Assembly (NCBI GenBank): GCA_001247695.2
Contig: LGRX02034414.1
Span: forward strand, 1 to 64,000
DNA from: Cymbomonas tetramitiformis
Lineage: Eukaryota > Chlorophyta > Pyramimonadophyceae > Pyramimonadales > Pyramimonadaceae
DNA: 64,000 nucleotides
Direction of reading: 5' to 3'
How positions within the stretch are numbered: the first letter of the stretch is position 1; the number at the start of each line of letters is the position of its first letter. Made by a program: the position numbers and the translations under genes. The notes beneath the pieces are model-generated. The model was not told the origin of the DNA. It ran no database searches and saw only the letters and a list, made by a program, of their open reading frames with translations. This document shows positions 8,011 through 44,439 of this stretch, in pieces.

Positions 8011-8011
8011 A

Positions 8012-23036: not shown

Positions 23037-23560
23037 TACTGGAGCCTGATGAATGCTTCCTAGTGATCGTCAGATTTTTGGTCTGAAAGTCAATGTGTGG
23101 ATTTCTCCTCTCCAACCAATCTTGACCCAGAATGACAGTGAATGGTTTCATGTCAATGATGTAGAAATCTTCTGTATCCTTATACTTACCCAGCGTAAAT
23201 GTAGTTTTGGGAAGATAGGATGTGCATGGTAGTTGGCTTCCTCCAGCCAATCCCACTGAAAACGATGAAGAATCTGTGGGTGCTATACCAAGCTGAGCAG
23301 CGAACTGTCTGTCAATGAAAGACGATGTTGCTCCTGGATCTACCAAAATGTGAGTACTCTGTCCATATACTTTCCCTTTGTACAACAACAGCTTCTTCTG
23401 TGATTTCAGCTGTGCTGTTTGAGACTGCATTTGTGCGATGTGTTCTGAGGGAGTGTCCATCTGCTGAAACTGTAATGTCAGACTGGAAAGGACTTCTTCT
23501 GAGATACTCTCAACCCGGCCACTTGCTTCAGTGGCATCTTCAGGCTGATTTATCTTGGGG
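23008..23560 (-). CDS. G1 aspartic protease
   Basis: A retropepsin-like domain with the active-site loop LVDPGATSSFID, where D-P-G replaces the common D-S/T-G, and the flap and second strand ending ILGQDWLERRNP. It would cleave the Gag-Pol polyprotein. The first ATG is at 23460, but the frame is open upstream to the end of Gag and is -1 relative to it. Alternatively a 120-nt GT-AG intron (CAG|GTACCAG to TTTCAGCAG|ATG) would link Gag to protease in phase 0. The frame shifts again just before RT, around CTGACGATCACTAGG, which looks like an indel or a second recoding site. Confidence 0.8.
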
Positions 23561-24932
23561 GTGCTCTCAACACTGGTACCTGCGCAGTACCCTGAGAGTT
23601 TCCCTGAGGAGCTGGAGCTGAAGCTGGAACTGGAGTTGCAACTGCTGCATTAATGCTGTGCTGATTCTTCAGTTCCTTAACCAAGGTGTTGATCGTATTG
23701 ATGAGTTTGCCGGACCCATCCTTAGCACCCTGATTCTGTTGCTGCTGTCTCCGGTTCTGGAAAGGACTCTGAGCTGGTGGCTTACCCTTGATATCTTTTC
23801 CATCTGGGGTCTTGGTGGAATAACAATCCTTTTCGATGTGACCAACACGACCACAACGATTGCAAGACTGAGGATTCTGTGATTTCCCTTTTCCTTTGCC
23901 CTTGCCTTTTCCACCTTTTCCCTTGCTCCGATTTTGATTGGAGTTCTGGCTGCCACTCTGGTTCTGATTCCGATTTCTGTTGGATCTGTCATATGGCTTC
24001 TGGCCACGTCCTTTGTCCTTGTCCTTCTTGACTGGACCTCCTGATGACTGCTCCCTCTGACCCCGATAGTGAAGGGTTTCTGACTGCTTTGAATGAATGA
24101 CATAATTCAAATCAAGCAGTATCTGTGTGGTTTCTTGCCACGACAGATTATTCCTTTCCTGTTCTGTCAGGAATCTGAGTTGGAACTGTCTGCGGAGATC
24201 TGAATCCATACTGCTGACAAATCTATCCTTTATTAGCACATCGTTCAAATCAACTGCTGCTAGAGAAGCCAGTGATGTGAACGTGCGCAAATAATCTGAA
24301 AAGGTTTGGCTTCCTTGAGACAGTGCCATAAGGTGTTTCTTGGCTACTGATCTCTTGTGAGGATTACCAAATTGGCTGAGGAATGTCCGTCTGACCATTT
24401 CATAGGTGGCATTTGGCTGTTGTGCCAAGACCTGAAAATAGTGTCTGTCGTTGTTCTGAATAAGAGTCAGAAACACTGTAATCAAGTCCTTGTCCTTGAC
24501 TCCTGGATAGGTGAACTGGAAATATCGGTCCACCGTGTCCAACCAGACTTCCGCGTCCTGTCCTGATTTGAATTCCCTAGGTGGTGTCATTTTCACCTTT
24601 GGGACCAAACTAGGTGGAACTGGTGCTGGGACAGAATCTGTATCAGGATCTGTAAAGACCTTAGGAGGATTGTCTTCTGTGTACTCGGTCTCTGGTTCCT
24701 GCGGTTCATTGGCTGGATCCCTAAATCGGCTCATGTCTGGCTTCATACGACTGATGTCGTCGAAGTAGCCTATCTGGTCGTATCTGGTTTGAGTGTTGTC
24801 ATAACCAGCGATCCATTTCGGAACTTTAAACCGGCTGAATGCATCATATGAACCAAGAATGTCGAAAAACCATGTCGATGGATCTGGGTTGATAACTGGA
24901 ATCTCTGGCTCTTCCTCTTCGAGTACAACCAT
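23550..24932 (-). CDS. G1 Gag polyprotein
   Basis: 460 residues, starting ATG GTT GTA CTC after an intron-like TTTTGTTTTTAG. The N terminus is acidic. The centre (about 115-260) is a retrotransposon capsid domain (VWLDTVDRYF, FLSQFGNPHKRS, DYLRTFTSLA). Next come a Lys/Gly-rich basic stretch and a canonical zinc knuckle CNRCGRVGHIEKDC near residue 370, which binds RNA. The tail is rich in Gln, Pro and Ala. Gag forms the particle in which reverse transcription takes place. No stop or shift is seen. Confidence 0.92.
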   Translation of the reverse strand: MVVLEEEEPEIPVINPDPSTWFFDILGSYDAFSRFKVPKWIAGYDNTQTRYDQIGYFDDISRMKPDMSRFRDPANEPQEPETEYTEDNPPKVFTDPDTDSVPAPVPPSLVPKVKMTPPREFKSGQDAEVWLDTVDRYFQFTYPGVKDKDLITVFLTLIQNNDRHYFQVLAQQPNATYEMVRRTFLSQFGNPHKRSVAKKHLMALSQGSQTFSDYLRTFTSLASLAAVDLNDVLIKDRFVSSMDSDLRRQFQLRFLTEQERNNLSWQETTQILLDLNYVIHSKQSETLHYRGQREQSSGGPVKKDKDKGRGQKPYDRSNRNRNQNQSGSQNSNQNRSKGKGGKGKGKGKGKSQNPQSCNRCGRVGHIEKDCYSTKTPDGKDIKGKPPAQSPFQNRRQQQQNQGAKDGSGKLINTINTLVKELKNQHSINAAVATPVPASAPAPQGNSQGTAQVPVLRAPPR

Positions 24933-27649
24933 CTAAAAACAAAACACAACACAAAAATACCTTCAGCTAATCAACTAACCGAGTGTGTGTGATTTATATA
25001 TATATATATATAGTATATCTGTATGTTTACATACATGTAGTACATTTGTACGTAATAATGAGGTAGTTATACATATATATCCACCTTCTTCCCCCCTCAA
25101 GGAAGTGCGTGATATAAGGCAGTTGTCAATTGCCTGTACCTCATAAATAGTATGCATTCCTTATAGGAAGCATCTGTTACAGTTTTAGGGTTGTTGCCCG
25201 ATATATTATCATGTCTGTGTCGATTACAGCATGATATATTTATGCCAAACACGAAGTTTATCGAATATTTAGTGGCATTTTAGGGCATGTTAGGTTACAG
25301 TGGCCCATATTCCCAATAATGTGATTAGGGTGTTACATGGTATCAGTAACCCTAAAATAGGTAAAAATAAAGCAGTATAAATATTTTGTAAACATTTTAA
25401 AGCAAAACTGCATTTAATACCACACTGAATGTTACGTGGTTTTCAGGAGGTATGTTACACCCCTGACACACACATTCAATTTTTAGGGTGTTACAGGGTG
25501 TTACACATGCTGCATAAATCAGGGATTGTTTATTGATAGCTAAATATTCATATTAGCAAAAAAAATCAAACCGAAATTTTCATTTTTAAATCATGCGTAA
25601 AACATTTTTACGCATTTCGTTACAGCCAATATGCACACCCCTAGATATTTAACACCTGCTATCTAGGGTGTTACACGAGATATGACTATAGTCATTATGA
25701 TTTTCTCATACCTCAATAGGTATAAAATCATATTATCAAATAAAATAGGGTCCGATTTTCAAATTTCAAATCTATCGCAAACGGATTTTACCTATTTTGG
25801 CCGTTTTTCGGCTTGATAATTGTTTCCATAATAACATATCTCTGTGTGTGTGTGTGGACTGCAAAGTACAGAAGCACTGCATATCACTTCACCTTTGCAC
25901 ATGACAATTTTCATGGCATAAAAGTGAATTATTCTGCATATCAACATCTGAGGTTGATCATATTTGTGGGTTTTACTGATTGAAACCCATGGAAGTAAAT
26001 GTACTTCCTGATGATATTTAGATTTACCAACTATAAGCGGATTATCCACTTCAGTGATAATTTATCAATCTATGATATGTTTTGAGCATATGACTGTGCT
26101 CTAAGATATATCAAAAATGATATCTCTTGTTTTAAACATATCAGGACATAGCTTGATTATATAATCAAAGCAGTTTGACACAACACATATATGTGTGTGT
26201 GCTTGTCTTCAACAACCTATGTCAGCTCAATATATGTATGTATTGATCTGGTTAGGTACATGCATTTGTGCTGATCAGTACTGAGTCAATTGTCAGAATG
26301 CAGTATAGTGGTTGTTGTTGCTCCAGCGATATATGAGAGTGAATGAACTGTGCCCAACAGTTACCAGCTGTTGTATGGGCACAGTATATTGCCTTCGGGT
26401 CTGGAGATAACTCCATCCAGCCCTACAGCATGTTGGATTATTCTGTTCCCATATTTATCGCCATCACTGACACTCCACACGCACATGTGTTTGTGGAGTG
26501 TTATCCATATTATCATATACATGATAGATATTAAAGTTGGTCAATTCACTATGAGTCAGTGAATATCAATACATACAGTAATGCCAGTGTGTGTGCATGT
26601 ATCATAGTACTTATTGATTAGTACTTTTTTGCCAGTGTGTGTGTGTGTGTGCTCACTTTTACACACCTATAGGAAGATAACTTCTGGATTTAACAATATT
26701 CCCAGACAGTTTATCATGCAGGATGATGATCAGCATACCATGTACTGAATGAATCTAGCATGATATATATTAGGTTAGGGGTTATTGTAATCCCGAGATA
26801 ATCTCATTCACAATAATGAGTTGCTGGTCTATTTCACATATAGTTCCGGTGAGCAATCCTTTCAGTGATCCACAATAGAACGATATGTGGTCCGAAGAGT
26901 ATCTCGACTCCACCGGGACATAACGAGCTAATTATTGTGTTAAGACCACTGAATAGGCACCTTACACTATATGGGTTCGAATATAGTTAACATGCACAGC
27001 AGGTATGCTTTTGTGCATGTCTGATGCATTGTGATATGATGTTATATATTCCAGCTGCTATCGTGATCAAGCTGGTTTATACATAACATCTGCTAACATG
27101 ATGCATGCACAACTTACAATATTGCAGTCACTCAGTATAGAATGTATACATGATGTAATGCTGCATATACTCAGATGTTGCATGTTGGTGTATGCTGCAT
27201 GTTAGTGTGTGCATGTTAATGTGTGCTGCATTTTAGTGTATGCTGCAAATACTGCAAGTTCAGATAAACATCTCTTGCACACTATATTGCAAATAAATAA
27301 GCATGAAAATGCTGACAATTTGAATATTTCTGCAGTCATCAATATATGGTGTGAAATGCTGCAGTATAATAATCAGATGTCCATCATGCATCCATCCAAA
27401 ATATCCCTGCGCGCGAGTATACAGTTGTTTTGCAGAGTATTTTGACGCGAGTATGTAATGTACAGATGATCGTAGCAACATTTTGACATCATCATCATCG
27501 TAAAATTACAAGATAATCGTAGCACGCTGCAAATGAATTTATGCAATTGGGCGCGCTGCTGATGAAAAGCATATATCGTCGCCATTTCTCAGCGCATGAT
27601 ACGAGCGCTGACGTATGCTGACTTATGCGCGGATCATAAATCCGTCGAT
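24933..27649 (-). other. G1 leader, AT-rich, non-coding
   Basis: This is the untranslated region between the 5' LTR and Gag, cut from its first 640 bp (43219-43857) by the methyltransferase element. 24990-27090 is an inverted copy of about 2400-340 of E1. It holds AT microsatellites near 24998, CA/TG runs at 25840 and 26635, many GTAACACCCTA-like motifs (25320-25680), a CTTCCTTGAGGGGGGAAG-type hairpin on the minus strand at 25084-25105, and an imperfect TGCTGCATGTTAGTGTG repeat (27175-27255). A leader this long is unusual. Confidence 0.55.
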
Positions 27650-27653
27650 GATT
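27650..27653. repeat. GATT target-site duplication, left copy
   Basis: GATT immediately precedes TGTCGCGAAC at the left end of the nested retroelement. GATT also follows the right end at 43215-43218. Four bases fits gypsy-type integration but could match by chance. Confidence 0.6.
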
Positions 27654-27877
27654 TGTCGCGAACTTATGCACGAAGCGTCCACACAAAGCACAACCCTCTA
27701 GCCCTACTACTAGACAGTCTTACTTATTGTCAGTGCCTCCACAACACTAGCTTGACTTTGCATATGTTTCCTTATATGACTGCACAGTTATCTTGCTACT
27801 GTAACTATACAAAATCTCAAAATTTTTGATATCTCTTTATCTCTTCTCACAACTTGTGCAAGCTCTTTTTCTCAACA
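27654..27877 (-). repeat. 224-bp repeat R1, outer copy
   Basis: It begins TGTCGCGAAC and ends TTCTCAACA, so it has TG...CA ends on both strands. It is identical by eye to 28264-28487. The two copies flank the left 384-bp repeat. With the GATT duplication, this outer copy appears to be the true left terminus of the element, making the 3' LTR either R1 plus L or R1-L-R1. Confidence 0.85.
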
Positions 27878-28261
27878 TGAAAAAGACTGTTAATTACAGT
27901 TCTGACGCAGTCGCACAAGGACAAGTCCACAAATGTATATCCTTATAAGCAGAAGAATACTGTATCTTACAAATTATCTCATAACACTGCTGTTTTCGCG
28001 GTCTTAAGCGAGTCCTGGCTATTTTCGGAATCACTGTTACGAAGGCAAAACAAAAATGAGCGTCTGGCTCACCCTGCTACGCCGCCCTACATATCCTCGC
28101 TATCTCCAAACAAGTGTAACACCCATCCGTATTTCCGTATCTCGTCACTGTCATAACTCCTCGCGCGTATCGTACTGCGCGTGTCATACGTTCGTCACAG
28201 AGACTGCTACAGCAAGTGTCACAACCCGGCTGAGGTATACGATAAGCCGTGGTTTGTGACA
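27878..28261 (-). repeat. 384-bp terminal repeat L, left (3') copy
   Basis: Ends are TGAAAAAG...TTGTGACA on the plus strand, which is TGTCACAA...CTTTTTCA in element sense. It matches 42831-43214 base for base as far as I can see. In element sense its first 46 bp hold an inverted repeat (TGTCACAA...TTGTGACA). Confidence 0.92.
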
Positions 28262-28263
28262 GC

Positions 28264-28487
28264 TGTCGCGAACTTATGCACGAAGCGTCCACACAAAGCA
28301 CAACCCTCTAGCCCTACTACTAGACAGTCTTACTTATTGTCAGTGCCTCCACAACACTAGCTTGACTTTGCATATGTTTCCTTATATGACTGCACAGTTA
28401 TCTTGCTACTGTAACTATACAAAATCTCAAAATTTTTGATATCTCTTTATCTCTTCTCACAACTTGTGCAAGCTCTTTTTCTCAACA
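28264..28487 (-). repeat. 224-bp repeat R1, inner copy
   Basis: Same sequence as 27654-27877, separated from L by the two bases GC. Its inner end abuts a polypurine tract, so in element sense this is where the 3' LTR would begin by the usual rule. Confidence 0.85.
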
Positions 28488-28495
28488 TCCCCCAT
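28488..28495 (-). other. Polypurine tract candidate
   Basis: In element sense ATGGGGGA directly precedes TGTTGAG, the start of R1. A purine run next to the LTR start primes plus-strand DNA synthesis in LTR retroelements. It lies 28 bp after the ORF2 stop. Confidence 0.65.
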
Positions 28496-28522
28496 CTGTA
28501 GCTTCCACTGGTAGCACAGACA

Positions 28523-31500
28523 TTAGACAAGAGCTTGCTCAGCATCTTCTGTCGTAACGCCATCCATTGCGAACTTGCCCATGCTGAAGGTGAACATACC
28601 CACTCCAGAAGCTTCTCCTCCTCGCAACATCCTGGCTCTTGTCAAAGGGTTGCGAAACACCATGACCCACATGCATCTTCTGCCAATAGGTCCATGCTCC
28701 AAATGCCCAATCACATGTAAACGTCCAGCGTGACACAGCTTACGAAAGTATTGTGCCCTGCTTTCTGTCATATCTGTCATGTAGTGCGATGGCACATGAA
28801 TACAAGCCACCACACGACTGGCCAGTACTGCCAATGGCAACGCAATATCCAGCACTGCGAACCAGGGTGAAGTCACCACCGCGTCACACACCCCATACTT
28901 CTCCTTCCAGGCTCGATAATTGCCCGGTTGTAAAGCATTAAGGGCTTCGTGCCACTTCAACTGCGGATTCCAATCATTATTCATAACCTTCAGGTGAGGC
29001 CATTCCAGCGACATAACCTTGCCAATGACACCTGTGCCAGCCCAAGGATCCCACACCTGTGTGATCTTCTCCCAAGTCACCTCGTGCGCCAAACGTCTGA
29101 CCTCCTGAGGAACTGTCATCACCAATTCTAAGCCCCAATCCAGTTGACTGGCAATCTTCACCTGAGCTCTGCTCAGTTGCGTCACATCTCCTCTCTTCTG
29201 TACTTCCTCGGGGCTCATGGCCTGCACCGTGGACGTCTTGCGGAGACTTCTCGCGCGAGTGTGCTGCTCTGCACACTTCCTGCTCAAGATGGTGCGATGG
29301 CCCTCATGCCAGAATCCTGGCATCACTTCCGTGATCACTCTGCTGAGCTCCTCCTGGTTTCCCCAGGCCACTCTGTCAGGAAGATCCCCCATGCTCCCTT
29401 CTTTTCTGAGCATCTGCCGCGAGGTCAGCGCCTGCCATGGGTCTTCACGTCCCGGCCTCACTGCACGATGCGGACCCACGTCTGCAGGCAACAATACCAC
29501 ATCTGATCCCAGCTTCTCTCTCAGCTGCAGCTCCATGGCCGCCATCTTGTCGACGATTGACGCGCTCACCTCGGCGGCAGCTGCCACCACGGTCCCACCT
29601 AAGCACTTGGGACATTGCCAATCCCCTTCAGGTACTCCATCCAGCGCTGGATTCAGACACCACGTGTGATAACCACGGTTACAGGTGTCACATAGCAACA
29701 TGGCTGCCTCCCCATCTGTCCGCATGCACGCCTCACACGCGAGATGCTTGCTGGGAATGGCTGCACTGCAGTCGTACTGGTCTTTCACTTGTAGGTGACA
29801 TGGTGCAATATTTTGCACTGTGCTCTTCTCCCGCAGCTTCGTGCTGTCCTCCAACACTACCACTCCATCTCTTTGCACCTTGACTATCTTCAGGATGGCT
29901 GACTTGGTGGCCACCTCCATGCCAGAGCGCGGTTGTTGTCGTATATATACGAAATCGCCTGCCTTGAACTGGTGCGGCTTCGGCTCGTAACTGCCACTCC
30001 TCCTGTGCTCGTACCGTAAAGTGTCGCGGTGCTGAGCGATCTCCAGGTTGCACCCTGCATGTACCATGAGCCTCTTCACGATGGCGGCTCGCTGTAACAG
30101 ATCATCAGCCAGTGTCTTCTCCTCCTGCTTCCCAAAGTCCAACTCGGGTCGAGCACGAAGATCCGGTGGCACCGTGGCTTCCTGAGCGAACAGCAAGGTG
30201 AATGGCGCCACTCCAGTGGACTGCTGCCTAGCTGCGTTGTAGCTGAGTACGAGTGACCAGAGCATCTCATCCCACTCGAAGTCCAGGCCCTTGTCGAGGG
30301 CCATCTTCTTGAAGCAAAACTTGAGGGTGCGTACCACCCGTTCAGTTAAGCCATTGCTCTCTGGAGAACTCGGTGAAGTCACTCTTCGGTCAATGAGACA
30401 CTGCTCGCATAGAGCAGAGAACTCACCTTCAAACTCTGTGCCCCCATCCACCAAACATTCTGCAGGCGCCCCAAACACGGATAGGACATGATAGCGAAAT
30501 GCGCTGGCGATGGTGGCGGCCTCCTTGTCGGGGATTGGAACACACACGACGAATCGCGTGTAGTGCTCAATCATGACCAAGACGCGTTGGTTCCCAGCTT
30601 TCGTGATGCGTTTCGTAGGCCACGCTAAATCCAGGGACCAGCGATACATGAAGGACTTGATCTCCAGCGGCGTGAGATTCGCCTCCTCCCGTGCATAGTG
30701 CGTCTTCACCCTCTGGCAAGTCTGGCACTGAGTGACCACTGCTTGCACATCCTGTTTCATGCCTGCCCAGTAATGGCGTTGCCACAACAGGTTCAATGTC
30801 CGCCTGATGCCCCAATGGCCAGTCCTCTCATGGTACTCACGCACCAACTGAATCCTGTCACAGGGCTTGGGCACCAGCAGCTCCTTACCACTGACGGTGA
30901 CCATGTATAACTCGCCCATGAGCTCGTCCCAACGGTGACGCGCTGCCCTCTTCCTTACCCTGTGATATTCCTCCTTGGGCACCTCCACTCTTCCTCCTGT
31001 CTTGATCCACGCGAGGCATAGCTCGTCCTCGTGTATATCGGGGTATCTTTCTCGGAATGACTCCTGGTTGGTTACGCTGGCTAGCATGGCAACCATTCTC
31101 GTAGTGTCGGGCAGCTTAGGCAGCCTCATCTCTTTCTCCTTTGTCACTGGTGCCCACTCTGGGGCTGAGCTTGTCTCTGCTGGCTTGCCTCCAGGTCTTG
31201 AAAAGGCCTGCCGGTGACGTGCCTCGTAGCCCGCGAGCTTCATGGAGGCCATCTTCCACTGCCTGCGGCGTGGAACAGCGTCGGCGGTGCCTAGCCCCTG
31301 TGTACCTTTCTGTCCTTGGCTGCACATGCGTTGCAGTCGTTCTTCCCAGTCCTGATGGCTGAGGCGTCGCGCGACTTGCTGGGTGTAGCCGCTGGAACTG
31401 GTGATCCACTCTGCTAGTTGGGCTCGCACCGGCTCAGCCGTGCCCTCGGAGGTGGCAGCCACCTTGGTGGCTTTCGCGATGGGGATGGCAACTAGCGTGC

Positions 31501-34500
31501 CATGTTCCTCCTCCTCACTCTCCTCACTCTTCGGCAGTTTGGTCGTGCTGACCTCGGCAATCGCATACAATAGCTCCATTGCTCTTCGGTCCATAGCAAG
31601 GCCAAGCACTCCTGCCAATTCTTCGTCTTTCATGCCATGTGCCGCGCGCAGCTCACCTGCGCTGTATCCCATGGCAACTGCCTTCTCGTCCAGGTTAACC
31701 TCTCTGGTCTCCCCCACTTCATCATCGTCTCCCTTCCTCACCACTGTGCCTGCGCGAGGCGCGCGAAAAGCACGAGAGTTTTGCGTCGCCAAGATGGTTG
31801 GCAATACTCTCATAGGTTCCCCTACAACGTTGGCGGTGTAGTGAGGCTTCCTGTCTCCTGTGGCGACCCTGCGCGGCTTCCAGCCTCGCTGCAGAATATC
31901 GCGCACGTATCTGTCTGGTGGTCTGTCCACCCGCTCCATCACCAGATTGAACTGCTGATTTTGGAACAGATTGCTCCAATATGCTCGTAGACGATGCGCG
32001 TATGATCCCGCGCGCGCCGCGTCAAAGGACACCGGCTGGCCCACCACGCTGTTGATGATGGGAAACACCTCCTTCCTGATCTTCGAGTTCTCCCTGTGTG
32101 ACAGCGGAGAAACGTTTTCCAGCACATATGCTGGCGGTCTCTGAGGCTGCAGCTGTTGCAGCGTGGAGAGGACTCGCACTGCCTGGTAGAACAGTCTGCT
32201 GTGCCTGCCCTCCAGACCAGCCAGCTTACCAGCTGGTGACAGGTCCTGGCATGGATATCCACACACCATGACCCACTGCTCTCCACTCAATGCCCCTGCA
32301 TGTACAAGGTCACTGAGGCTGGTGTCTTCGATGTTGCTGGGCAGTTGCTCCAAGTGGGCTGCCTCGGCACGGAGCAAGTCAGGATGACGGCGGCTGAGCG
32401 CCATGCACCTGGCCCTGGCTACCGTCTGGCTGGACTTCGAGATGTCCTGGTAGAGGTACTTGTTAACCTTAACTCCGCAGCGCAAGAGCATCTCTAGTCC
32501 AGCACACAGGCCCCCACACGGCTCATAGCAGACCACGCCCTCTTCTCTGGCTTCCCGGAAGAAGCTCTTGTCAATCACTCTCGTGTCGATCTTCTTCGGC
32601 ACTTTGAGCTTACCACCCTCCATGGTCTCGTCGCCGTATATCGCTGGTGAGCCTCCGGAATGCATACCCCTGATCGGCCGTACCTGGCTGAGGGCATCCC
32701 AGGCGACTCGAGTCAACCTGCCCGAGCACCTGGCCACTTCCGGGTGGTCAGTGTCAAACATGACCCCCTTGTTACACTCCAGCTCTTCTTGGTAGTGCAC
32801 ATCAAACAGTCGATGGACTGCACTGGTCCCCAGCTGCTCCCTGACCATGTTCTCGCAGTAGTTGGCCACCTGAGCTTCTGGGCTTACTTCGGGACCAAGT
32901 GGTGGCTCCCTGGTCACTTCCAAGCAAATGATGTCTGTGAAGCAGCGCGTTGGCCTCTCGGCACGCCCCGCTTCCCTGGCTCGGTCCCCTTCACGATCCA
33001 AACGGGCACCAGTCTCGTCTGCGGTGCTGGGCAGTGGGTACCTGGATGGCACATCCGCGTTCTCATTCTTCGGACCTGGTCGGTACTGGACCGTGAACTC
33101 AAACTCCTGGAGGCTGATGGCCCAGCGTAGGTGTTGACCTTGTAGGTCACCCTTCTCCATGAGTGTTGTGAGCGGCGAATGGTCGGTGATCAGCGTGAAG
33201 TGGATCCCGTGCAGGTACTGTCGTAATGTGCGGATGGCCCACACCACTGCCAGCATCTCACCCTGGAAGCTCGCGTACTGTCTCTCGGTTTTCGACAGCG
33301 AGCGGCTGATGACCACACAGATGTGCTCTACGCCATTCTCGTCCTTCTGCCCCAGCACTGCGCCAATGCCATGGTTGCTCCAGTCTGTGTAGAGGAAGAT
33401 GGGCTTGCTGTAATCAATGGGCTTCAAACATCTCCCCGAACACAGGGCATCCTTCAATGCTTGCAATGCCTGGTCCTGATCCTTCCCCCAAGCTTCCTTG
33501 ACATCCAACACTTCCTTTCTGAGCAAGTCGTTCAATGGTCGTGCCATCTCTGAGTAGTTGGGTCCCATGGGTTCCCCCACCAGACCTTTGTAGTAGTTCA
33601 TGAGTCCAAGGATGGAGCGTACTCCAGTTTTGTCCTCGGGCTTGGGCAGCTCTTGGATGGCCTTGCACTTGATGTCCTGCGCGCCAATGGTGTTATAGCC
33701 GATGCGGTAGCCCAAGAAGTCCACCGTGGCTGACCCGAAGGTCGACTTGCCCGAATGCAGACGTATCCCTGCATCCCCCAAAGTGCGAAGCACGGCTTCC
33801 ACATCCTTGATGTGCTGCTCAGCGGTGTCTGAGTATATGCACACGTCATCGACGTACGCCACCGTGCAGTGTTGCAGGTGACGTAGCTCGTAGTCCATGA
33901 TCCTGATGAAGGCTGCGGTTGCTCCAGCTGCTCCAAACGGCATGGATGTGTAGCGATAAAGCTGGTTGCCCCACCAGAACGCTGTCTTGTCCCTGTCCTC
34001 CTCAGTGGTCATGGGAATCTGGTGGAACGCCTTGGTCGCGTCCAGGGTAGTCTTGAACTTGGCCTTGGCCACGCGCTGGTAGAGCTCTTCTGGACGATGT
34101 GGTAACGTGTTATCCTTCAGCGACAACCGGTTCGTAGACCGGAGGTCGACGCAGAATCTCGTCGAGGTCCACTGTCCAGTGTCGTGATCCTTCTTCCCCG
34201 CAACCACCACGTTGCTGGCGTGTCTGCAGTGCTGCGAAGCCGGCTCGATGAAGCCATATTCCAGCAGTTCCTTGCAGTGCAGGTCGATGATCTCCTGCTC
34301 TCCCGGGCTGTATTTCCTCGGTCGTTGGTAAGCTACCTTAGTCTCGTCCTTGAAAGGGATGGCGAAGGTCGCATGTGTCGCGCCCCCATGGTAGCCTTTG
34401 ATGTCCTGCGGCTTGTTGGCGAAGCAGTAGCTGCACCTCCTTACCACGTTGCGCATCTCCTCCCAATTCTCCTCGGTGAACTCGGGATGTCCTCCGAAGG

Positions 34501-35566
34501 TGGCATTGAGCTCGGTGTCCAGCCACGCGGCCTCGTCCTTGGTGACCCTGGTCGTGCCCCCTGGCTGTAACGTGTCCAGCACCGTGTGCGGAAGCACCTC
34601 GTCCTGCTCTGCCACCATAGCCTCCCATCCGGTGTCCCATTGGCGCGAAGACCTCTGGTCTTCCCAGGCGGTCCTGGCAGATCTGGTCGGCGAGCCCGAG
34701 CACGATCCCATCGTCAGCACGCCCTGAAACTCCCCAGGGGCCACAGCGGCCACCCAAGCAGCCACCGCTAGCAGCAGCAAAAGTTTTAAAATTCTGCTGG
34801 TACCCACTGGTTTAACTGGAGGGTGAAGGGTCAGTATGCAAGTCAACATCCTCCACCCCCCTTGCATACGGCCCAGGCCTCCTCCCGCAGACACGTAGAC
34901 CACCAGCGCCAAGACTGATATCACATAGACACAGTGCGCCACTTGGTAGCAAGCGGCTGTGACCTGCAGGCGCTGCAGTCGGGCGGCAAAGCGCGGCTTC
35001 TGCATGCGTCGAGGAACGGCTGCCAGCGTAGCCGGCCCTGCGGCCAAGATCCGCTGGGCGACCGCCAGCGCGCGACCTGCCTGAGTCTCCAGCGTGGCGA
35101 ACGTGCCACCATCGTAAATCAAGCCGGAGCATGGCAACCCATGGTGGACAACGTGGGCGCCAACTGTCAAGACGCACCCCAGAGTGCCGACCATGTGCGT
35201 GAAGTGCATGGCGAGCATGGCGAGACAGAACCGTAGCAATGGCACGTACCACAGCCCACGCCGGGCGTGGTGGAGCCCAGCTACCTCGAGAGCACCCTTG
35301 GTCAACAGCAGTAGGTGCCTGGCCAGCTCCAACAGCACTCGCAGAGGCGCCTGTTGATGTGCCCATGGCTTGAGTGGTGCTGCGCGCATGGCCCACAATG
35401 CGCGTGCCATGGCTCTGCGGGGCACTTCAGCGTGGAATGCCCAGCAGGCCACGACCTCACCAAGAAATCTGAATACCTCCATAGCCATCCATACTGCCAT
35501 CACTGCAAAATGAGGCAGCTGCGGCCAATGCAAGCGCACGAACACCCCCACGAGCAGGAAGCACAC
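28523..35566 (-). CDS. Pol polyprotein with membrane region, RT, RNase H, DNMT3-like methyltransferase, integrase, PHD and second methyltransferase-like domain
   Basis: 2,347 codons from a GTG; the first ATG is at 35500. Domains, approximate residues: hydrophobic stretches at 1-45, 120-160, 205-230 and 262-285; RT about 400-650 with SMPFGAAGA and YVDD (near 570); RNase H about 700-850 (LYTDWSNHGIGAVL, ITDHSPL); C5-methyltransferase about 1010-1335 with EPCGGLCAGLEML (motif I), GYPCQDLSPAG (IV), YVLENV (VI), AHRLRAYWSNL (VIII) and a GxAMDRRAM-type motif X; integrase about 1575-1760 with H..H, CQTC, SLDLAWP, LVDGGTEF and PESNGLTERV; PHD finger about 1942-1990; C-terminal DPWAGTG and VTSPWF (about 2171 and 2231). 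Presumably proteolysis releases the parts. The frame is -1 relative to ORF1 and overlaps its end, so frameshifting, splicing or reinitiation must join them. All catalytic residues I looked for are present. Confidence 0.93.
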   Translation of the reverse strand: MCFLLVGVFVRLHWPQLPHFAVMAVWMAMEVFRFLGEVVACWAFHAEVPRRAMARALWAMRAAPLKPWAHQQAPLRVLLELARHLLLLTKGALEVAGLHHARRGLWYVPLLRFCLAMLAMHFTHMVGTLGCVLTVGAHVVHHGLPCSGLIYDGGTFATLETQAGRALAVAQRILAAGPATLAAVPRRMQKPRFAARLQRLQVTAACYQVAHCVYVISVLALVVYVSAGGGLGRMQGGWRMLTCILTLHPPVKPVGTSRILKLLLLLAVAAWVAAVAPGEFQGVLTMGSCSGSPTRSARTAWEDQRSSRQWDTGWEAMVAEQDEVLPHTVLDTLQPGGTTRVTKDEAAWLDTELNATFGGHPEFTEENWEEMRNVVRRCSYCFANKPQDIKGYHGGATHATFAIPFKDETKVAYQRPRKYSPGEQEIIDLHCKELLEYGFIEPASQHCRHASNVVVAGKKDHDTGQWTSTRFCVDLRSTNRLSLKDNTLPHRPEELYQRVAKAKFKTTLDATKAFHQIPMTTEEDRDKTAFWWGNQLYRYTSMPFGAAGATAAFIRIMDYELRHLQHCTVAYVDDVCIYSDTAEQHIKDVEAVLRTLGDAGIRLHSGKSTFGSATVDFLGYRIGYNTIGAQDIKCKAIQELPKPEDKTGVRSILGLMNYYKGLVGEPMGPNYSEMARPLNDLLRKEVLDVKEAWGKDQDQALQALKDALCSGRCLKPIDYSKPIFLYTDWSNHGIGAVLGQKDENGVEHICVVISRSLSKTERQYASFQGEMLAVVWAIRTLRQYLHGIHFTLITDHSPLTTLMEKGDLQGQHLRWAISLQEFEFTVQYRPGPKNENADVPSRYPLPSTADETGARLDREGDRAREAGRAERPTRCFTDIICLEVTREPPLGPEVSPEAQVANYCENMVREQLGTSAVHRLFDVHYQEELECNKGVMFDTDHPEVARCSGRLTRVAWDALSQVRPIRGMHSGGSPAIYGDETMEGGKLKVPKKIDTRVIDKSFFREAREEGVVCYEPCGGLCAGLEMLLRCGVKVNKYLYQDISKSSQTVARARCMALSRRHPDLLRAEAAHLEQLPSNIEDTSLSDLVHAGALSGEQWVMVCGYPCQDLSPAGKLAGLEGRHSRLFYQAVRVLSTLQQLQPQRPPAYVLENVSPLSHRENSKIRKEVFPIINSVVGQPVSFDAARAGSYAHRLRAYWSNLFQNQQFNLVMERVDRPPDRYVRDILQRGWKPRRVATGDRKPHYTANVVGEPMRVLPTILATQNSRAFRAPRAGTVVRKGDDDEVGETREVNLDEKAVAMGYSAGELRAAHGMKDEELAGVLGLAMDRRAMELLYAIAEVSTTKLPKSEESEEEEHGTLVAIPIAKATKVAATSEGTAEPVRAQLAEWITSSSGYTQQVARRLSHQDWEERLQRMCSQGQKGTQGLGTADAVPRRRQWKMASMKLAGYEARHRQAFSRPGGKPAETSSAPEWAPVTKEKEMRLPKLPDTTRMVAMLASVTNQESFRERYPDIHEDELCLAWIKTGGRVEVPKEEYHRVRKRAARHRWDELMGELYMVTVSGKELLVPKPCDRIQLVREYHERTGHWGIRRTLNLLWQRHYWAGMKQDVQAVVTQCQTCQRVKTHYAREEANLTPLEIKSFMYRWSLDLAWPTKRITKAGNQRVLVMIEHYTRFVVCVPIPDKEAATIASAFRYHVLSVFGAPAECLVDGGTEFEGEFSALCEQCLIDRRVTSPSSPESNGLTERVVRTLKFCFKKMALDKGLDFEWDEMLWSLVLSYNAARQQSTGVAPFTLLFAQEATVPPDLRARPELDFGKQEEKTLADDLLQRAAIVKRLMVHAGCNLEIAQHRDTLRYEHRRSGSYEPKPHQFKAGDFVYIRQQPRSGMEVATKSAILKIVKVQRDGVVVLEDSTKLREKSTVQNIAPCHLQVKDQYDCSAAIPSKHLACEACMRTDGEAAMLLCDTCNRGYHTWCLNPALDGVPEGDWQCPKCLGGTVVAAAAEVSASIVDKMAAMELQLREKLGSDVVLLPADVGPHRAVRPGREDPWQALTSRQMLRKEGSMGDLPDRVAWGNQEELSRVITEVMPGFWHEGHRTILSRKCAEQHTRARSLRKTSTVQAMSPEEVQKRGDVTQLSRAQVKIASQLDWGLELVMTVPQEVRRLAHEVTWEKITQVWDPWAGTGVIGKVMSLEWPHLKVMNNDWNPQLKWHEALNALQPGNYRAWKEKYGVCDAVVTSPWFAVLDIALPLAVLASRVVACIHVPSHYMTDMTESRAQYFRKLCHAGRLHVIGHLEHGPIGRRCMWVMVFRNPLTRARMLRGGEASGVGMFTFSMGKFAMDGVTTEDAEQALV

Positions 35567-35631
35567 CTGAGTGCGCTTCGCCCGCCTATCATTGGCGGGC
35601 TGCGTGCCCGGCTTTTCGCCGGGGCTGCTTC

Positions 35632-38600
35632 TCAGTGACGGGCGCGCCGGGCTGCAGCCGGCCCGGTGCCCCCTTGAAAAGGCCCCAGTGCGCTCTGTCT
35701 TCTCCTCTCCTCCCAGATCTCATCATAACTTTGGCGTCTCTGGGGAGCACGCGACGCGCCAATGCCGGCATGTCGACCGCGAGCCGCGTCCTGACGATGA
35801 GCGCCTTCCCTGGGGCTCGGAGATCTCCTCCTGCGCTGACCAGCTCGTGGTGAACGTTGCTGTACGGCACTCTCAGTTGGACTCTGCGGGCGCGCTGCAG
35901 GATGGCCTGAAGGTCGAGTGTCGACATGCGCAACGAAGCCACTGGAACGCTCCGGGCTGCTGGGTGCTGTAGAGCTCGGGGTTGATGGCACGTACGAAAC
36001 GGAGTCCTGCTCTTGTGCAGCTGGAGGCACGGCTTCAGTCTGCTGCGTGCAGACGGAATGTGCCGGGGATCTCAGAATGTCGTTGATTGACCGGTGCTCA
36101 GGTCTCTGTGCCATGTTGCACTCCAAGCCCATGGTCGATATCCCGCCGAGAACTCGGCCAGAGTAGGGTGTCGGCGTGGGCGTGGCTCGCGCGCCATCAC
36201 GACCATCAAGCCCCGGGCAGTCTGGCCCAAGCGTGCTCATCCTCGCAGTTGCGTGGGCAGCACGAGGTCGTTCTTCATATTCTCTGATGATCGCCTGACG
36301 TGCCCGTATCGATTCCGAGAGAGCCGCCATGGTGGTGTGGTTTGCTGCGACCTCGGCCTGCCCTTGTGCCAAACTGGCAGACAGCCCAACAAGTCTTTCA
36401 CTGATGACCTCCACGCTGTCTTCATCCTCTGTCTGCGGTGATGGTGTTCTGGTGCGACCCGTGTGAGTGCTCACACCCTCAACAGCCGCGAGGTCGGAAG
36501 AGTATCCCGAGATGCTGCCATCTCCCTCCTGACTTCCTGCATCCTCTCCCTCGATTGGGTCCAGGCATCTCATAAAGTCGTTTCGAAGACGCGCCTGCAC
36601 CTCTGCCCGACGTGCCTCAGCTAGCAACGCCGGGCCCACCGAGGATGTGAACGCAGACAATGGTTCTCGGTGCATCACTGCCACCTTGTTCCAGGTCTCC
36701 CAGCTGCAGCAGTCGAACTTGCGCGTGCCTGAGGAGAGGTACTCCAAGGTGAACGCCATGTTGCTGGGTCCCCGCTCACTGTAGTAGCGATTGTCCTCGA
36801 AGAGGTAATATACGGCCTTGGACCGGGCGTTGGCACGGGTCTTGAAAACCCGTAGGGTGCCCTGCCGCGGGCCATCGCTCAAATGGCCTCTGGCGATCTC
36901 CAAGAGCTGAGTGCGATCAACCAGATGCTCCATATGTTTCTGCAAGGTGCCAAGGAGTCCTCCCGTGCAGCCTTTCGACTGCCCACCCAGAGGCAGAAAC
37001 TCTCCCCTTTGTCCCACTCCGGCGGAGGAGGCGTACTGGTGCAGGGTCTGGCTGCTGAGTCGCTGCGTGTGCACCCCCTTTCCTCGCTCCGCGAAGGGCT
37101 TTCCAAGCTGGAACTCGATCTCGCCCATGAAGCAACGGTACTGGATGTGGAAGACCGTCTGTCCATGCAGCGCCATGAACTCCGAGATCCCTCCCAGATC
37201 CAGCCAGTTGGCTTCCCCAGCTGTGTTCTCGCTGCGAGTGGGGGACTCTGGCTCGTAGGTGCCCTGGAACACTGCAGCGTGGTACTCTAACATGGCAGGG
37301 TCGAAGACGCCGTTGGGCCAGGTTTGATGCCGTAAACGAAGCGTGGCTGAGGATGGTGGCGGTGCGGAGCCAGATGGCCCCGCCTCATCCCCCCTGACCG
37401 TCTTCGATGTCCTGAGAGTCTTGGATGTGCGCACTGGAGGGTTCCTTCTGGCCCCATAAGTGTCCAGCGCATCCTGTGCTTGCTCCTCCGTCTTGCATGC
37501 ACCGAGCATCACTCTCGTGTTGTCCCCCAGGTGTAGGTACTCCACGGCGGCGGCGTTCGTGCTGACCACCTCGCCACTGCCTCCTTCCCCATCTGTCACC
37601 GGGTAGAACTTCCCCACTTTGTCCGCTGCGTCTGACAGCGTGAGCTGCGGGACCACATTCACATGCACGCCCTCCACACCAGCCACCTCCTCGTCGTATC
37701 TCACCTTCAGACGAGCTCGAAGGTCAGCGATGTCCACTCGCTGTACGTACTTTAGATGCTGGTACTGCCAGCGCTGGTCCTTCTCATAGTAAAAAGGCAG
37801 CTGGAACTCGCCAGTCATCTTACCCATGGGGTTCATGATGGTGACGCCTTCCATGGTGTGACGTACCATGCGCTCCATGAGATCCCATTGGGCGCGAGTG
37901 TGCTCGCTGAGTACGCAGAACTGGCGCGCCACCTTGTCCCACATGAGCTTGCCCGTCACGACCCCTGGGTACGTCTGATTGGTGTTGAGGATCTCCTGAA
38001 CACTCGCCATCGTGTACCTTCCAGCCTCCCGATGGGCACCACAGTCAGGGAGTGGGACCTGCTCGTTGTCCTTCCTGCCGCTCGCCCTTGTGGTCCAGGT
38101 CTCTGAGGGTATCTTCGTCTCCTTGTCAACCTTCTGGTCCACCAACGTAAAGTCGGGCCACAGTAGCTCCGTCTCCAGGATGGTCTTGTATTCTCCACAA
38201 CGCGAGAACTTGACCCGCACAAATCCTGCGTCCACACCACCTCCATCGCCCTCTTCGCAGAGTGTGCACAGACGAGCATAGCCCGTGCGGTCGATGTACA
38301 AGCGCTGCTGAGACCAGCTGCTCTCCTTGTCTTGGTAGTCCCACGGGTTCACTGCCATGCCCCCCCATGGCTGTACGCTGGCCAGCTTGAAGTCAGCTTC
38401 GCTCGCGGCCTCCTGCGCCAGCGTGAGGTCTGGATAGCGAGGGTCTGACTGAGTTGTGGTCAGGCTGGCTGGCGTGCGGGACCCCCTCGCATCTGGCTCT
38501 TCAGCACTGGACCACTCACCTCTGGTCGCCACATTGGCTTCCCGCTGGCTGCGTGATGATGCTTGTAGCATGCCCAGCATCTGGTCTGTCAAGGACGTAC

Positions 38601-41600
38601 CAGGCGGCGGAGGTTCGTACGTCGAGCTCTCGGTGTGTGAACTGACTCGCCCAGTGAGCTCGCCTTGCATCATCGAGCTGGGTCTCAGGAAGCCCGCCTC
38701 CACCATGGACTGGCAGCGCGCCTCGAGTCTCTCCTTCTCCTCCGAGTTGAACCTTCTCAGCCTCATCTCCTCTAGCCATGACGCCAGGCTGTCCATCAGC
38801 TCGGGGTGGTTTCGCGAGAATGCACAAGGTGCAGGCGCACACCTCTCCCCTGCGAGGGCCAGACGGTCTTCTCCCCTTGCGCCCAGGGACACTGCTTCAC
38901 GTGGTGGTAGCTCGCAATCCTCAAAAGCGGGGGCAAGAGTGCGCGCTGCCGTGGCATCGACGTCGAAGATCTCGGTCGCCAGGCACACTCTCGGGTCTTC
39001 GTTCCGCTTGCTCCTTGCATCGACGGGCGGCGTCAACTCGATCAATGGCAACGTGACCTTCTCCTTCATGCCCAGTGACACCGCGGCCTCAGAAGTGGCG
39101 ATGCCTCTGTAGAGGTCGATGGTCAACTTGAGGGCGTTCTTCAGGGGTCCCGTGCCCACCAAGAAGTCCCACGTCGTGTCATTGGTGTAGGTGACGAAGG
39201 CGTGGAGCCGATGCAGAGTCATGTACGGCGTGCCCGCGGCGAGAACCACATCCACGTAGCAGTACTTCGTGAATTCCGCAGGGCTGCCATCACATCTCGC
39301 CACCCTGGCCCCTGTCTCTGCATCAAAGATGGTCAAGCCCAACCTGTTGGCTGTCCTGATTGGGATAATGTTGCAGTTGGCCCCCGTGTCCAGGAGAAGC
39401 GCTTTGTACAACATAAGCAAGCCTCCAGAGGCCATCAGCGCCATCCCTTGTGCCAGAGACTCGTTCAGGAGCTTGCATACAGGCTGGACCTGTGCCATGG
39501 CAGTGAGCTGTTCCTCTGTAAGACCACTGAGCATCTTCTTCTTCAATAGCTCGTACGCCTTGGCCTCCATGGTCCCTGCGTGCAGCTCGCCCCTCTCGCT
39601 GAAGTCTCTCACCCCGTAGCTCTCCTGGACGGTGGCCGCTGCAGCTGTTACATGCACCGTCGTCCTCCCCTTCCTGGGCTGCTCCACCATGTCCTCCGGC
39701 ATCTCGTCCAGAGGAACCTCTTCTTCGTCACTGTCGTCGCCCGACTCCATGCCCGGGCAATCGTCATCATCGTCACTGTCGTCGCCCGACTCCATGCCCG
39801 GGCAGTCGTCATCCTCATCGCTGATGTCCTGGCAGTCTGCTGCTGAGGCTGTCGGCACGGGGAGCTGGTTGTTCTCAGCCAGTTCCACCAAGGTCTCCAC
39901 ACCCCTTGGAGCTGTTATGCGACCTTCTGCTACGAGTCCAGCAGCTAGCTTACGGAAAGCTGCTCCCAGGCTCTTGATCACGGAGGCCATGAGCTGCACC
40001 TTCCTCTGCATCTCGTCCGCCGCAGGCGCCATGGGCACCTGTGCGTCTGCCTCGTACTCCTCGGGTGTCTTCACTGGGAAGCCCCTCATGCGCTGGGTAC
40101 TTCCCAGGGCTACTGCTGGAGCCGCCGTGAGTTCAGACTCCGCACTCTTGCACAGCGTCTCGGGGAGTGCCCCCAGACCCAAGGTGTTGAGGGCGCTCGA
40201 GAGCTCCTCTTCGCCCATCTCCTCGGCCATGGCTGTGAGTAACTCGGTTGGAGGGCCAGACGACACTCCTACCCCTGCGCTGCCATGGTGGTGCGCGCGT
40301 GCATCGACGGTGTGAGTCTCCCTCTCCGCGACGTGCGCTGCGACTGGTTCCTCGTCGGAGCCCTCATCCTCGGACAGCACCTGCGACTTCACACTGCCCG
40401 CACGACTGGCAGTCTTCCTAGCAGCCACCATGCCCTGGTACTCTGCTTTCAACGCCTCGGGATTGCCAGTGGCGCTCTTCTGCTTGTCCTCCGGTGACTG
40501 TTTGGCTCTGTACTTGTCCTTCTCGTCGTTGGACAGCTGCTGCCAGTCCGTCACCAGGATGCCCCAGTCAGAGTTCTTGAAGCGGTTCTTCAGATTGTAC
40601 ATGCGCAGAGCGGCGTTCTCCGCGTCCCACCACTTGCTGGAGCCAAGCCTGCTCTCGTGGAATCCAGCAGGCATCTTGACGTGTTTATAACCACTCCTGC
40701 ACTGCTCGGGATCGGACTCATGCCAGCCCCCTCCAAAGCAGCGCAAGCACTTGGGCTTGTCGTTCGTACGCACGCCCTCTGCTGGCGGTGGCGTCTTGTT
40801 GTAGGAGGCCTTCTTAGCTCTTTCGGCCACATTCACCTCCTTCTTCATCTTCTTAGAAGGTGGCGTGTCTACCTTCTTGCTGTTCTCCGGTTCGCCTGAC
40901 TGCACCACCTCAGAGGACTCAATCTTCTTGATCGAGTTCTTTATGGCCTTGAGGTCAAGGCCATGCTGTCGCGCCTCCCAGGTGGAGTACTGGCAGCCAC
41001 ATCGTCTGGTGATCTCCTGGAGGAAGGTGAGGATCCAAGACTCTGCATCGCCCTTGAGCTTGTCTTGAACCTCGACGATGGCCTCCAGGTCCTTCCAGGT
41101 CACCCGATTGGGTGGCGGGAACTGTGCCCTCAGTTGCTCCTTCACCCGCGTCTGGAAGACCTTGATGCGTAGGTTGTCCACGCAGTCCTCGATGAAGGTA
41201 CGCAGCTCTTCATCGCTCAACACCTTCCCAGTGTTGAGCTGCATCTCCCTGCGTTGGCACATCTTCATGTAGGTCAGCCCATCCTGCCCCACCTCCTGTG
41301 GCTTCTGTGTCAACAGATCCACTTTCTCTTGAGTCCCTTTCATCATGAACTTCTTGTCAAGGGCAGCGATGAAGCCCCTGAGCGCGTAGAAGTACTGGGT
41401 ATCACGGGTGCCATCACGTCCCGTCAAGCCTTTCAGGGAGGTTCCATCAGTCAGATATTCGTCGGAAACCTCCCCTTGGGTGTCTTGGTTCGTCACCGGC
41501 CTCGCTATCACCCACGTGGTGCCAGTGTTCATCTCATTGAAAGGGGGCCTAGCGCATGGAATGGTACCCTCGAGTGGGCCATGCTCGCTAGTGTCCTTCA

Positions 41601-41937: not shown

Positions 41938-42084
41938 GTCTTCTTCAAAGATTATTAACGGCTCCTGGGCCTGGGCTTGCAGTTGTGCTGGTGCTTGTGC
42001 CTCAGGCTGTACTAGTGCTTGGGCCTCAGGCTGGCCACCGGCAGCCCCTTCCTCTCCTTCCAGCTCTGTGAAGTGCTGGCTCAC

Positions 42085-42830
42085 TCGTATCGCTCTCTGG
42101 GCACGCCTCTCTGCCCTTTGCTGATCCTGACGGTCAGTCTTGGATTCCGTTGCTACCTTTCTGGTGGAGAAGAGATACTGGTGTGAAGGCTCTTTTCACT
42201 CCACACTTCCCAGCTTACCAGTACGGATGAATCCGTCCCTGGCCTCACCTTTCAGTGCTTTGCTCTAAGTAGCAATCACTGCCAGGATAATCTCGTCCAC
42301 GACTGGTGAGCAGGGTTCCATCGGTGACCCGGTCTTATATTGGCTCTCCCAGATGTCCAGCAAGGTTGCCTCTGCCCTCAATGTCTCTGGTCCACGCAGT
42401 AAGTCAGCAGAACGCCAGCATGAGTCAAGTGACCACAAAGAATGCTGTCGTGATGGTGTCCACTGACAGTCCTGTTTCGCTCCACGCCTTCAGGCGTACC
42501 AGTACGGATGAATCCGTCCCTGGCTTTACCGTCTGGTGCTTTGCTCCAGCAGGATGTCACTTCCCGAAATAGCCCAGTACATAATTCTCAACGCTGCCAT
42601 CATGTTCGCAAAATTAGCAACTGGTTCTGCTGTGACCGCTGTCGCTGTACTTTGCAAGACTGGTGAACTTCGAGTGTCGCAACAGCCTGCTTCACTCAAC
42701 CTCTTCCAAGGCTTACCAGTACGGATAAATCCGTCCCTGGCATCACCATTCAGAGGTCTCGTTCTTCAGGACTGCTGTTGAACTCTCAGCATTACAGACG
42801 ACATGTCTGTAATAAGGCACATTTTTGTTT
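42085..42830 (-). other. Leader of the methyltransferase element with three hairpin repeats
   Basis: No gene. It runs between the 5' terminal repeat and ORF1. No TGG-type primer-binding site is visible next to the repeat, where the element-sense sequence reads AAACAAAAATGTGCC. Three copies of a short hairpin unit and a likely splice acceptor near 42160 are the only structure I recognise. Confidence 0.6.
42217..42740 (-). repeat. Three copies of a palindromic leader hairpin
   Basis: The palindrome ACGGATnAATCCGT lies at 42222-42235, 42503-42516 and 42721-42734 (the third has AAA for GAA). Each sits in a conserved 25-30 bp context: CCAGT before and CCCTGG after on the plus strand, which extends the stem. 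Two of the copies are also followed by a TTTGCTC stretch. Repeated self-complementary hairpins in a retroelement leader suggest RNA dimerisation or packaging, but this is inferred. Confidence 0.8.
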
Positions 42831-43214
42831 TGAAAAAGACTGTTAATTACAGTTCTGACGCAGTCGCACAAGGACAAGTCCACAAATGTATATCCTTATA
42901 AGCAGAAGAATACTGTATCTTACAAATTATCTCATAACACTGCTGTTTTCGCGGTCTTAAGCGAGTCCTGGCTATTTTCGGAATCACTGTTACGAAGGCA
43001 AAACAAAAATGAGCGTCTGGCTCACCCTGCTACGCCGCCCTACATATCCTCGCTATCTCCAAACAAGTGTAACACCCATCCGTATTTCCGTATCTCGTCA
43101 CTGTCATAACTCCTCGCGCGTATCGTACTGCGCGTGTCATACGTTCGTCACAGAGACTGCTACAGCAAGTGTCACAACCCGGCTGAGGTATACGATAAGC
43201 CGTGGTTTGTGACA
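42831..43214 (-). repeat. 384-bp terminal repeat L, right (5') copy
   Basis: Identical by eye to 27878-28261, including the same chance 67-codon frame. In element sense it starts TGTCACAAACC directly after GATT. Unlike the left end, no R1 sequence accompanies it. It should carry the promoter of the element. Confidence 0.92.
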
Positions 43215-44431: not shown

Positions 44432-44439
44432 GAATGAAG

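Follow-up and report, generated by a model that had tools for sequence, protein, structure and literature searches.

A Ty3/gypsy-type retrotransposon of the green alga Cymbomonas tetramitiformis with split direct repeats and a DNMT3-type methyltransferase domain in Pol

Introduction

Retroelements are usually targets of DNA methylation. Why should one of them encode a cytosine methyltransferase of its own? This question is raised by a locus in contig LGRX02034414.1 (assembly GCA_001247695.2) of Cymbomonas tetramitiformis, a prasinophyte and thus a chlorophyte of the Pyramimonadophyceae; the 64,000 nucleotides analysed here are referred to as the window. A DNMT3/DRM-like methyltransferase embedded between the RNase H and the integrase of a retroelement had been predicted there from the letters of the DNA, and its position had been called unusual.

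Anatomy of the element

We are almost certain that the locus is a Ty3/gypsy-type retrotransposon with split direct repeats and a DNMT3-type domain between RNase H and integrase. It spans window positions 27654-43214 on the minus strand, with the sense order A1 - coding - B1 - GC - A2 - B2. From its 5' side, the features are:

43215-43218, unstranded: target-site duplication on the 5' side of the element, sense AATC
42831-43214, minus: repeat A1, about 384-385 bp, starting with TGTCAC; matches A2 exactly and stands alone at the 5' end, without an adjoining B
42194-42763, minus: 5' leader in which a repeat of about 72 nt, with the hairpin-like core CCAGTACGGATRAATCCGTCCCTGG (plus strand), occurs three times
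35632-42084, minus: ORF1, 2150 aa, Gag-like by eye, with a knuckle-like cysteine motif
28523-35566, minus: ORF2 (Pol), an open reading frame of 2347 aa
34667-35566, minus: hydrophobic stretch at the N-terminus of Pol, 36% identical to P0005 and P0006 of a second subfamily
33701-34108, minus: reverse transcriptase (RT), YVDD at aa 571 (RVT_1, E 2e-21)
33101-33490, minus: RNase H (RT_RNaseH, E 2.6e-32)
31547-32569, minus: DNMT3-type cytosine-5 methyltransferase domain, aa ~1000-1340; Cys1106, catalytic by motif, has its codon at 32249-32251
30701-30859, minus: H2C2 zinc domain of the integrase (E 1.1e-16)
30227-30643, minus: DDE integrase core (rve, E 1.6e-6, below its cutoff; Ty3 integrase, the closest solved relative, E 9.3e-12)
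29603-29737, minus: PHD finger (E 3.9e-10)
28592-29134, minus: C-terminal class I methyltransferase-like domain, putatively of N6-adenine type (DPWAGTG, TSPWF)
28489-28496, minus: polypurine-tract-like GATGGGGG, immediately ahead of B1 (by eye)
28264-28488, minus: repeat B1, about 225 bp, matching B2 exactly
28262-28263, minus: 2-bp spacer GC between B1 and A2 (GCGACA-GC-TGTCAC)
27878-28261, minus: repeat A2, matching A1
27654-27877, minus: repeat B2, matching B1, with the terminus ...GCGACA
27650-27653, unstranded: target-site duplication on the 3' side of the element, sense AATC

The order of the domains in ORF2 agrees with the predicted location of the methyltransferase. Since the two A repeats (385/385 positions) and the two B repeats (225/225) are identical within this copy, the insertion is young. 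The ORF2 frame is open from position 35719 and overlaps ORF1 in a different frame, so a frameshift is possible. ORF1 contains an aspartic-protease-like LLDTGA (39373-39399), for which the match to Asp_protease_2 was weak (E 0.014, below the cutoff). A domain search of ORF1 and ORF2 gave no match to a tyrosine recombinase.

The leader repeats (42194-42265, 42475-42546 and 42692-42763) had no Rfam match at E≤1, nor did the whole window have one at gathering scores; they are possibly a packaging or regulatory signal. By eye, we identified no tRNA-complementary primer-binding site. At the location expected for it, just inside A1, lies a perfect 9-bp hairpin (ATTACAGAC-ATGTC-GTCTGTAAT in sense orientation, 42791-42813), and our guess is that it could serve as a self-priming device. 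Two stretches (aa 202-233 and 254-281) of the fast-evolving N-terminus of Pol (34667-35566) resemble membrane helices.

The methyltransferase domain

Both profile and structure searches with Pol aa ~1000-1340 ranked DNMT3A/B first, so that a C5-methyltransferase of DNMT3 type inside Pol, as predicted, was indeed recovered. In the comparison with solved C5 enzymes, the best 25 of the 53 rows were all DNMT3A, B or C, followed by HhaI, with DRM lower; in a second search, all 50 matches listed were DNMT3A, B or C. DNMT1-labelled matches were absent at E≤0.01 from the 53-row search and from the matches listed in two further searches. The domain shares with DNMT3A and DNMT3B the fold, the motif order and motif VIII (AHR.R..W.NL), but it is part of a polyprotein, its identity to their catalytic domains is 16-22%, and a domain search of Pol gave no match to an ADD or PWWP domain.

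The motifs of the C5-methyltransferase fold follow each other as I, IV (Cys), VI (Glu), VIII (R.R) and X. DRM enzymes have a permuted order in which motifs VI-X precede I-V. The ordinary order found here therefore excludes a DRM in the strict sense, and of the proposed DNMT3/DRM form only the DNMT3 part holds. The catalytic residues have not been lost from the other members of the family: Cys, Glu and both Arg are conserved in 79 of the 80 aligned rows. Most of the aligned relatives have another residue in place of the motif IV proline (P in 22/83). We consider it likely that the domain is enzymatically active.

The PHD finger and the C-terminal domain

The PHD finger is closest to relatives from KMT2C, CHD4, KMT2D and KDM5, and some PHD fingers of this group bind unmodified H3K4. 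The finger may target integration.

N6-adenine DNA methyltransferases combine a class I fold with the motifs DP.AG.G and [DNS]PP[YF]; the C-terminal domain of the window copy has DPWAGTG and TSPWF. It matched none of the NCBIfam families; the single Pfam match was to an unrelated capsule-synthesis family (E 0.0054, below its cutoff), and a profile search against the PDB returned a chance row alone (E 0.41). Foldseek placed sugar and O-methyltransferases first, with weak scores, and VIA placed adenine enzymes first. We regard the domain as a putative N6-adenine-type methyltransferase.

Split repeats and target-site duplications

The repeats are arranged in a way that is not expected of a gypsy element: the complete pair of direct LTRs that flanks the coding part of Ty3/gypsy elements is not present, although the RT-RNase H-integrase order with H2C2 and DDE domains is, together with TG...CA ends and a short target duplication. 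Split repeats are found in DIRS elements, but the tyrosine recombinase and the lack of target duplication that characterize these are not seen here. We know of no replication scheme that has been worked out for split direct repeats with a DDE integrase.

To see how general this form is, we compared the ends of 21 copies, namely the window copy and 20 others, all 20 with the full open frame. The 3' end read B-A-B in 16 of them and a solitary B in two (C76, C17123), and it was different or could not be determined in the other three: in C17672 the contig stops inside B1, in C7940 A2 is cut short after about 240 bases by other sequence, and in C17208 (249700-250578) the sequence beyond B1-GC-A2 enters the element's own leader, 114 bases from the contig end. 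The arrangement in C17208 is either a head-to-tail tandem, as from a circle or concatemer, or an assembly mis-join, and because the outer 3' end was not reached, no target duplication was obtained for this copy. At the 5' end, A was solitary in all 15 copies that could be read. All 12 copies in which both outer ends were reachable start with TG, end with CA and are flanked by a 4-bp target duplication, and the twelve duplications all differ. One of these is C76, a short A-coding-B copy whose own duplication is TGTG; this form could arise by recombination between B1 and B2 or by integration of a circle.

A second subfamily, with repeats of different sequence, has the B1/B2 pair in 8/8 copies and the A1/A2 pair in four of the six copies that include a 5' stretch (of the remaining two, C25704 offers only 694 bases, and C25446 showed no such pair). 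These four A1/A2 copies all have 4-bp duplications, for which a few bases' play at the repeat edges was allowed, provided that they abut TG and CA. Both subfamilies have the B1-A2 junction GACA-GC-TGT, which looks as if two ends of the element had been linked in head-to-tail orientation.

This junction, the short form of C76 with its own duplication and the run of A2 into the leader in C17208 are what would be expected if the split repeats were an abnormal form that results from a two-repeat circle having integrated, from recombination or from misassembly. However, the form is identical in 16 of 21 copies and recurs in the second subfamily with other repeats, and each evaluable copy has its own 4-bp duplication, which makes such an origin highly improbable. 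An assembly artefact in particular was judged unlikely given the 21 copies and the second subfamily, even though C17208 may hold one. We conclude that in the copies examined the repeats are usually split, and that the duplications are the mark of a DDE integrase. Split direct repeats can thus occur together with a DDE integrase and with target duplications of a clean 4 bp.

Relatives and descent of the domain

The best protein matches to Pol were C. tetramitiformis proteins (95-96% identical). Our set of relatives consisted of 105 sequences, the query and 104 matches. Of these, 93 contain the methyltransferase domain, 83 a PHD finger and 52 the C-terminal domain; as the search bait held the methyltransferase domain, relatives without it are under-sampled. 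The order RT/RNase H - methyltransferase - integrase occurs in 81 of the 105 sequences, from several chlorophytes and from metagenomes, followed by the PHD finger and the C-terminal domain in 47 and by the PHD finger only in 28. The placement called unusual in the original prediction is therefore so in comparison with other retroelements, but not within the element's own clade. RT and integrase without a methyltransferase domain were present in 11 sequences, and the remaining nine lacked RT or integrase. In four sequences, P0086 from Klebsormidium (KFL_009030040, partial), P0090, P0092 and P0093, the domain lies upstream of RT. The named hosts of domain-bearing matches were Cymbomonas, Haematococcus lacustris, Monoraphidium neglectum and Klebsormidium nitens; judging from its JGI label, P0130 is from Chromochloris zofingiensis.

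The two positions within Pol would fit two separate captures, in which chlorophyte and Klebsormidium domains entered related Pol genes independently: the domain is upstream of RT in the four sequences named above and between RNase H and integrase in the 81 others. The trees argue against this. In a Pol tree of 40 rows, of which seven were outgroup rows from the same search, the 33 domain-bearing rows grouped together (100/99). P0092/P0093 branched off first, then P0090 (94/91) and then Klebsormidium (98/91), before the clade with the domain after RNase H (99/95); the Klebsormidium Pol is thus nested inside the domain-bearing clade. In the domain tree, which has long branches and much inner order without resolution, the upstream-of-RT group joined at 88/80, and all element domains fell together, apart from bacterial enzymes and from one DNMT3A fragment on a long branch (93/90). 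The two histories also agree with each other. Pol and domain distances were correlated (Mantel r 0.80 for 70 rows, 0.79 for 64 rows and 0.67 for 59 core rows, reached in 0/9999 shuffles each), and the two trees shared 28 of 56 splits, compared with at most three in 500 shuffles. Two captures are a possibility that we hold to be the lesser one; we read these sequence comparisons as a single old capture, after which Pol and the domain would have descended jointly, with one move of the domain within Pol.

Searches of viral contigs with the window domain and with alignment A3 found no relative. Among GTDB genome contigs there were four weak loci, all in bacterial records, with 24-43% identity.

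Copies and selection

We searched the C. tetramitiformis assembly (851.7 Mb, 25,745 contigs) for further copies. The subfamily of the window has at least 121 copies of the domain that are 98-100% identical and free of internal stops (the best 121 of 3114 first-look candidates were scored), and the full 2398-codon frame is open in 41 of the 121. For the second subfamily, the figure is at least 120 copies, 99-100% identical to their query and likewise without internal stop (best 120 of 3092 scored). As the best candidates alone were scored, the absence of stops is partly owed to this choice. A few of these at least 241 copies may be alleles or duplicated contigs; C22006 and C10161, for example, have a common flank.

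Ratios of non-synonymous to synonymous substitution (dN/dS) were calculated pairwise against the window copy and pooled, for 19 copies within the subfamily and for eight usable loci out of ten of the second subfamily. The pooled pairs are non-independent, as they share the window copy's own changes, and synonymous sites are saturated between the subfamilies (pS ~0.65). Within the subfamily, dN/dS of the methyltransferase domain was 0.102 (189 synonymous and 64 non-synonymous differences), a value that is biased downwards because the 19 loci were picked by the protein score of this same domain; it was 0.126 against the second subfamily. The corresponding values were 0.044 and 0.076 for RT, 0.137 and 0.072 for the integrase, 0.119 and 0.157 for a first linker, and 0.114 and 0.294 for the linker after the integrase. 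Protein identities to P0005 appear to tell much the same: 85% for RT/RNase H, 80% for the integrase, 69% for the methyltransferase domain, 46% for the linker after the integrase and 36% for the N-terminus. These comparisons show that the DNMT3-type domain is under purifying selection, which speaks for a domain that is used.

Used for what is a separate matter, as the domain might be retained for nucleic-acid binding or for the folding of Pol and not for catalysis. Its dN/dS above that of RT and the frequent replacement of the motif IV proline are compatible with such a role, but the near-complete retention of Cys, Glu and both Arg seems to go beyond the needs of binding, and we consider a purely non-catalytic role improbable.

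A clade that comprises chlorophyte and streptophyte elements, and in which purifying selection has preserved a methyltransferase of the elements' own, implies that an element benefits from carrying the domain. Since at least 241 near-identical copies of the domain, from two subfamilies, are present in a single alga that has been cultured and sequenced, the benefit that a retroelement draws from a DNMT becomes directly testable.

Possible function of the domain

For their retroelements with a methyltransferase, de Mendoza and colleagues proposed that the enzyme methylates the cDNA (PMC5890265, as far as its available text goes). In the Cymbomonas element, the Pol polyprotein or its products would be packed in the particle beside reverse transcriptase and integrase. 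The DNMT3 domain could then act on freshly made double-stranded cDNA and methylate its CG sites no later than integration; in this way, the new copy would enter the genome pre-marked like host DNA. The PHD finger may tether the integrase complex to histone H3, and the C-terminal amino-methyltransferase-like domain may add, or may once have added, a second mark. We give about even chances to cDNA methylation being the selected role of the DNMT3-type domain.

If the element methylated itself, CpG depletion might be expected as a footprint, but it was not seen: the observed/expected ratio of the element (0.74) was close to that of the remaining window (0.79). Between copies, unpolarised transitions were about 1.35-fold more frequent at CpG (100/8370) than elsewhere (303/34350), which is a weak footprint. 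The copies are young and may have had too little time for CpG decay.

The missing depletion would also fit an enzyme that methylates the flanks of the insertion site or host chromatin instead of the cDNA, where early silencing would limit damage and the element would be tolerated. The many copies with intact domains in both subfamilies and the location of the PHD finger, on the same side of Pol as the integrase, are in line with this. However, older copies should then show methylation-driven CpG decay, and the excess is small, though the copies are young; we regard this explanation as unlikely. For the locus as a whole, we lean towards a recent Ty3/gypsy-type split-repeat insertion that carries in Pol a cargo for marking cDNA, consisting of the DNMT3, PHD and C-terminal domains. 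In its most far-reaching and tentative form, the element might be a mobile writer of two marks (5-methylcytosine by DNMT3, 6mA by the C-terminal domain) that joins them in one Pol with a PHD reader of H3 and stamps each cDNA host-like before or at insertion. It would then belong to an old Viridiplantae lineage of retroelements that combine split repeats with a DDE integrase, and whose single captured DNMT3 evolved together with Pol and was relocated once within the polyprotein.

Comparison with known elements

The element resembles Ty3 and the chromovirus gypsy elements in RT, RNase H, the H2C2 and DDE integrase and the TG...CA ends, and has a PHD finger in place of a chromodomain. Ty3 and chromovirus gypsy elements have ordinary LTR pairs and, to our knowledge, no methyltransferase.

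Retroelements that have captured a methyltransferase, to which the original prediction had referred, have indeed been described from charophytes and dinoflagellates. KnitGypsy-Dnmt3 of Klebsormidium nitens has gypsy domains, a DNMT3-type domain in Pol and a DIRS-like repeat arrangement (de Mendoza et al. 2018, PMC5890265); the general kind is therefore already known. Gypsy domains, the DNMT3-type Pol domain, DIRS-like repeats and purifying selection are, from the available text, common to it and the Cymbomonas element (PMC5890265). Klebsormidium P0086, which is presumably a copy of KnitGypsy-Dnmt3, belongs to the same Pol clade and thus shares Pol descent with the Cymbomonas element, but differs in domain order (methyltransferase - RT/RNase H - integrase, as opposed to RT/RNase H - methyltransferase - integrase). 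The host is also different, a streptophyte for KnitGypsy-Dnmt3 and a chlorophyte for our element, and the available parts of its description do not mention a PHD finger, an amino-methyltransferase-like domain or a target duplication (PMC5890265). The KnitGypsy-Dnmt3 domain produced no methylation in yeast, a result that its authors call inconclusive, whereas SymbioDIRS-Dnmt3 domains from two copies carried out de novo CG methylation there (PMC5890265). SymbioDIRS-Dnmt3 of Symbiodinium is similar to our element in its A-coding-B-A-B repeats and in the DNMT3 domain in the Pol frame, but it has a tyrosine recombinase instead of a DDE integrase and a dinoflagellate host (PMC5890265). The same paper names DIRS elements with a Dam-like N6-adenine methyltransferase, which, as the Cymbomonas element does, combine split repeats with an adenine-methyltransferase-like domain, but which have a tyrosine recombinase and, in the available text, no DNMT3 domain.

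A survey from 2025 repeats the streptophyte and dinoflagellate cases and, in its available parts, names none from chlorophyte retroelements (PMC12344493). In the open-licence PMC literature, as far as its texts were available, we found no chlorophyte or Cymbomonas case of a retroelement DNMT, no gypsy element with split repeats beyond KnitGypsy-Dnmt3 and no retroelement that joins adenine and cytosine methyltransferases. As far as these searches go, the new points are the breadth of the green-algal clade, the location of the methyltransferase behind RNase H and ahead of the integrase, the presence in Pol of a PHD finger and a further methyltransferase-like domain, the combination of split repeats with 4-bp duplications, and a burst of copies under purifying selection. 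The published green case, from a single charophyte genus, is thereby extended to several green algae.

Surroundings of the element

The element is surrounded by nested repeats. It is flanked on either side by long duplications, both direct and inverted (1-11749, 25179-26882 and 43966-56288), most of the listed pairs being 82-99% alike, and a tandem array with a period of about 132 bp occupies 19011-19971. A second gypsy-type element (21120-24932) has a Gag-like frame and a 618-aa RT/RNase H frame that is 27% identical to the RT region of ORF2. By eye, we also found a LINE-like reverse transcriptase frame of 881 aa (45514-48159), around which A greatly exceeds T on the plus strand (AT skew 0.39 at 46001-48000), and a proline-rich frame of 1368 aa (56426-60532) with a CCHC-like knuckle near its end, which is probably the Gag of another retroelement.
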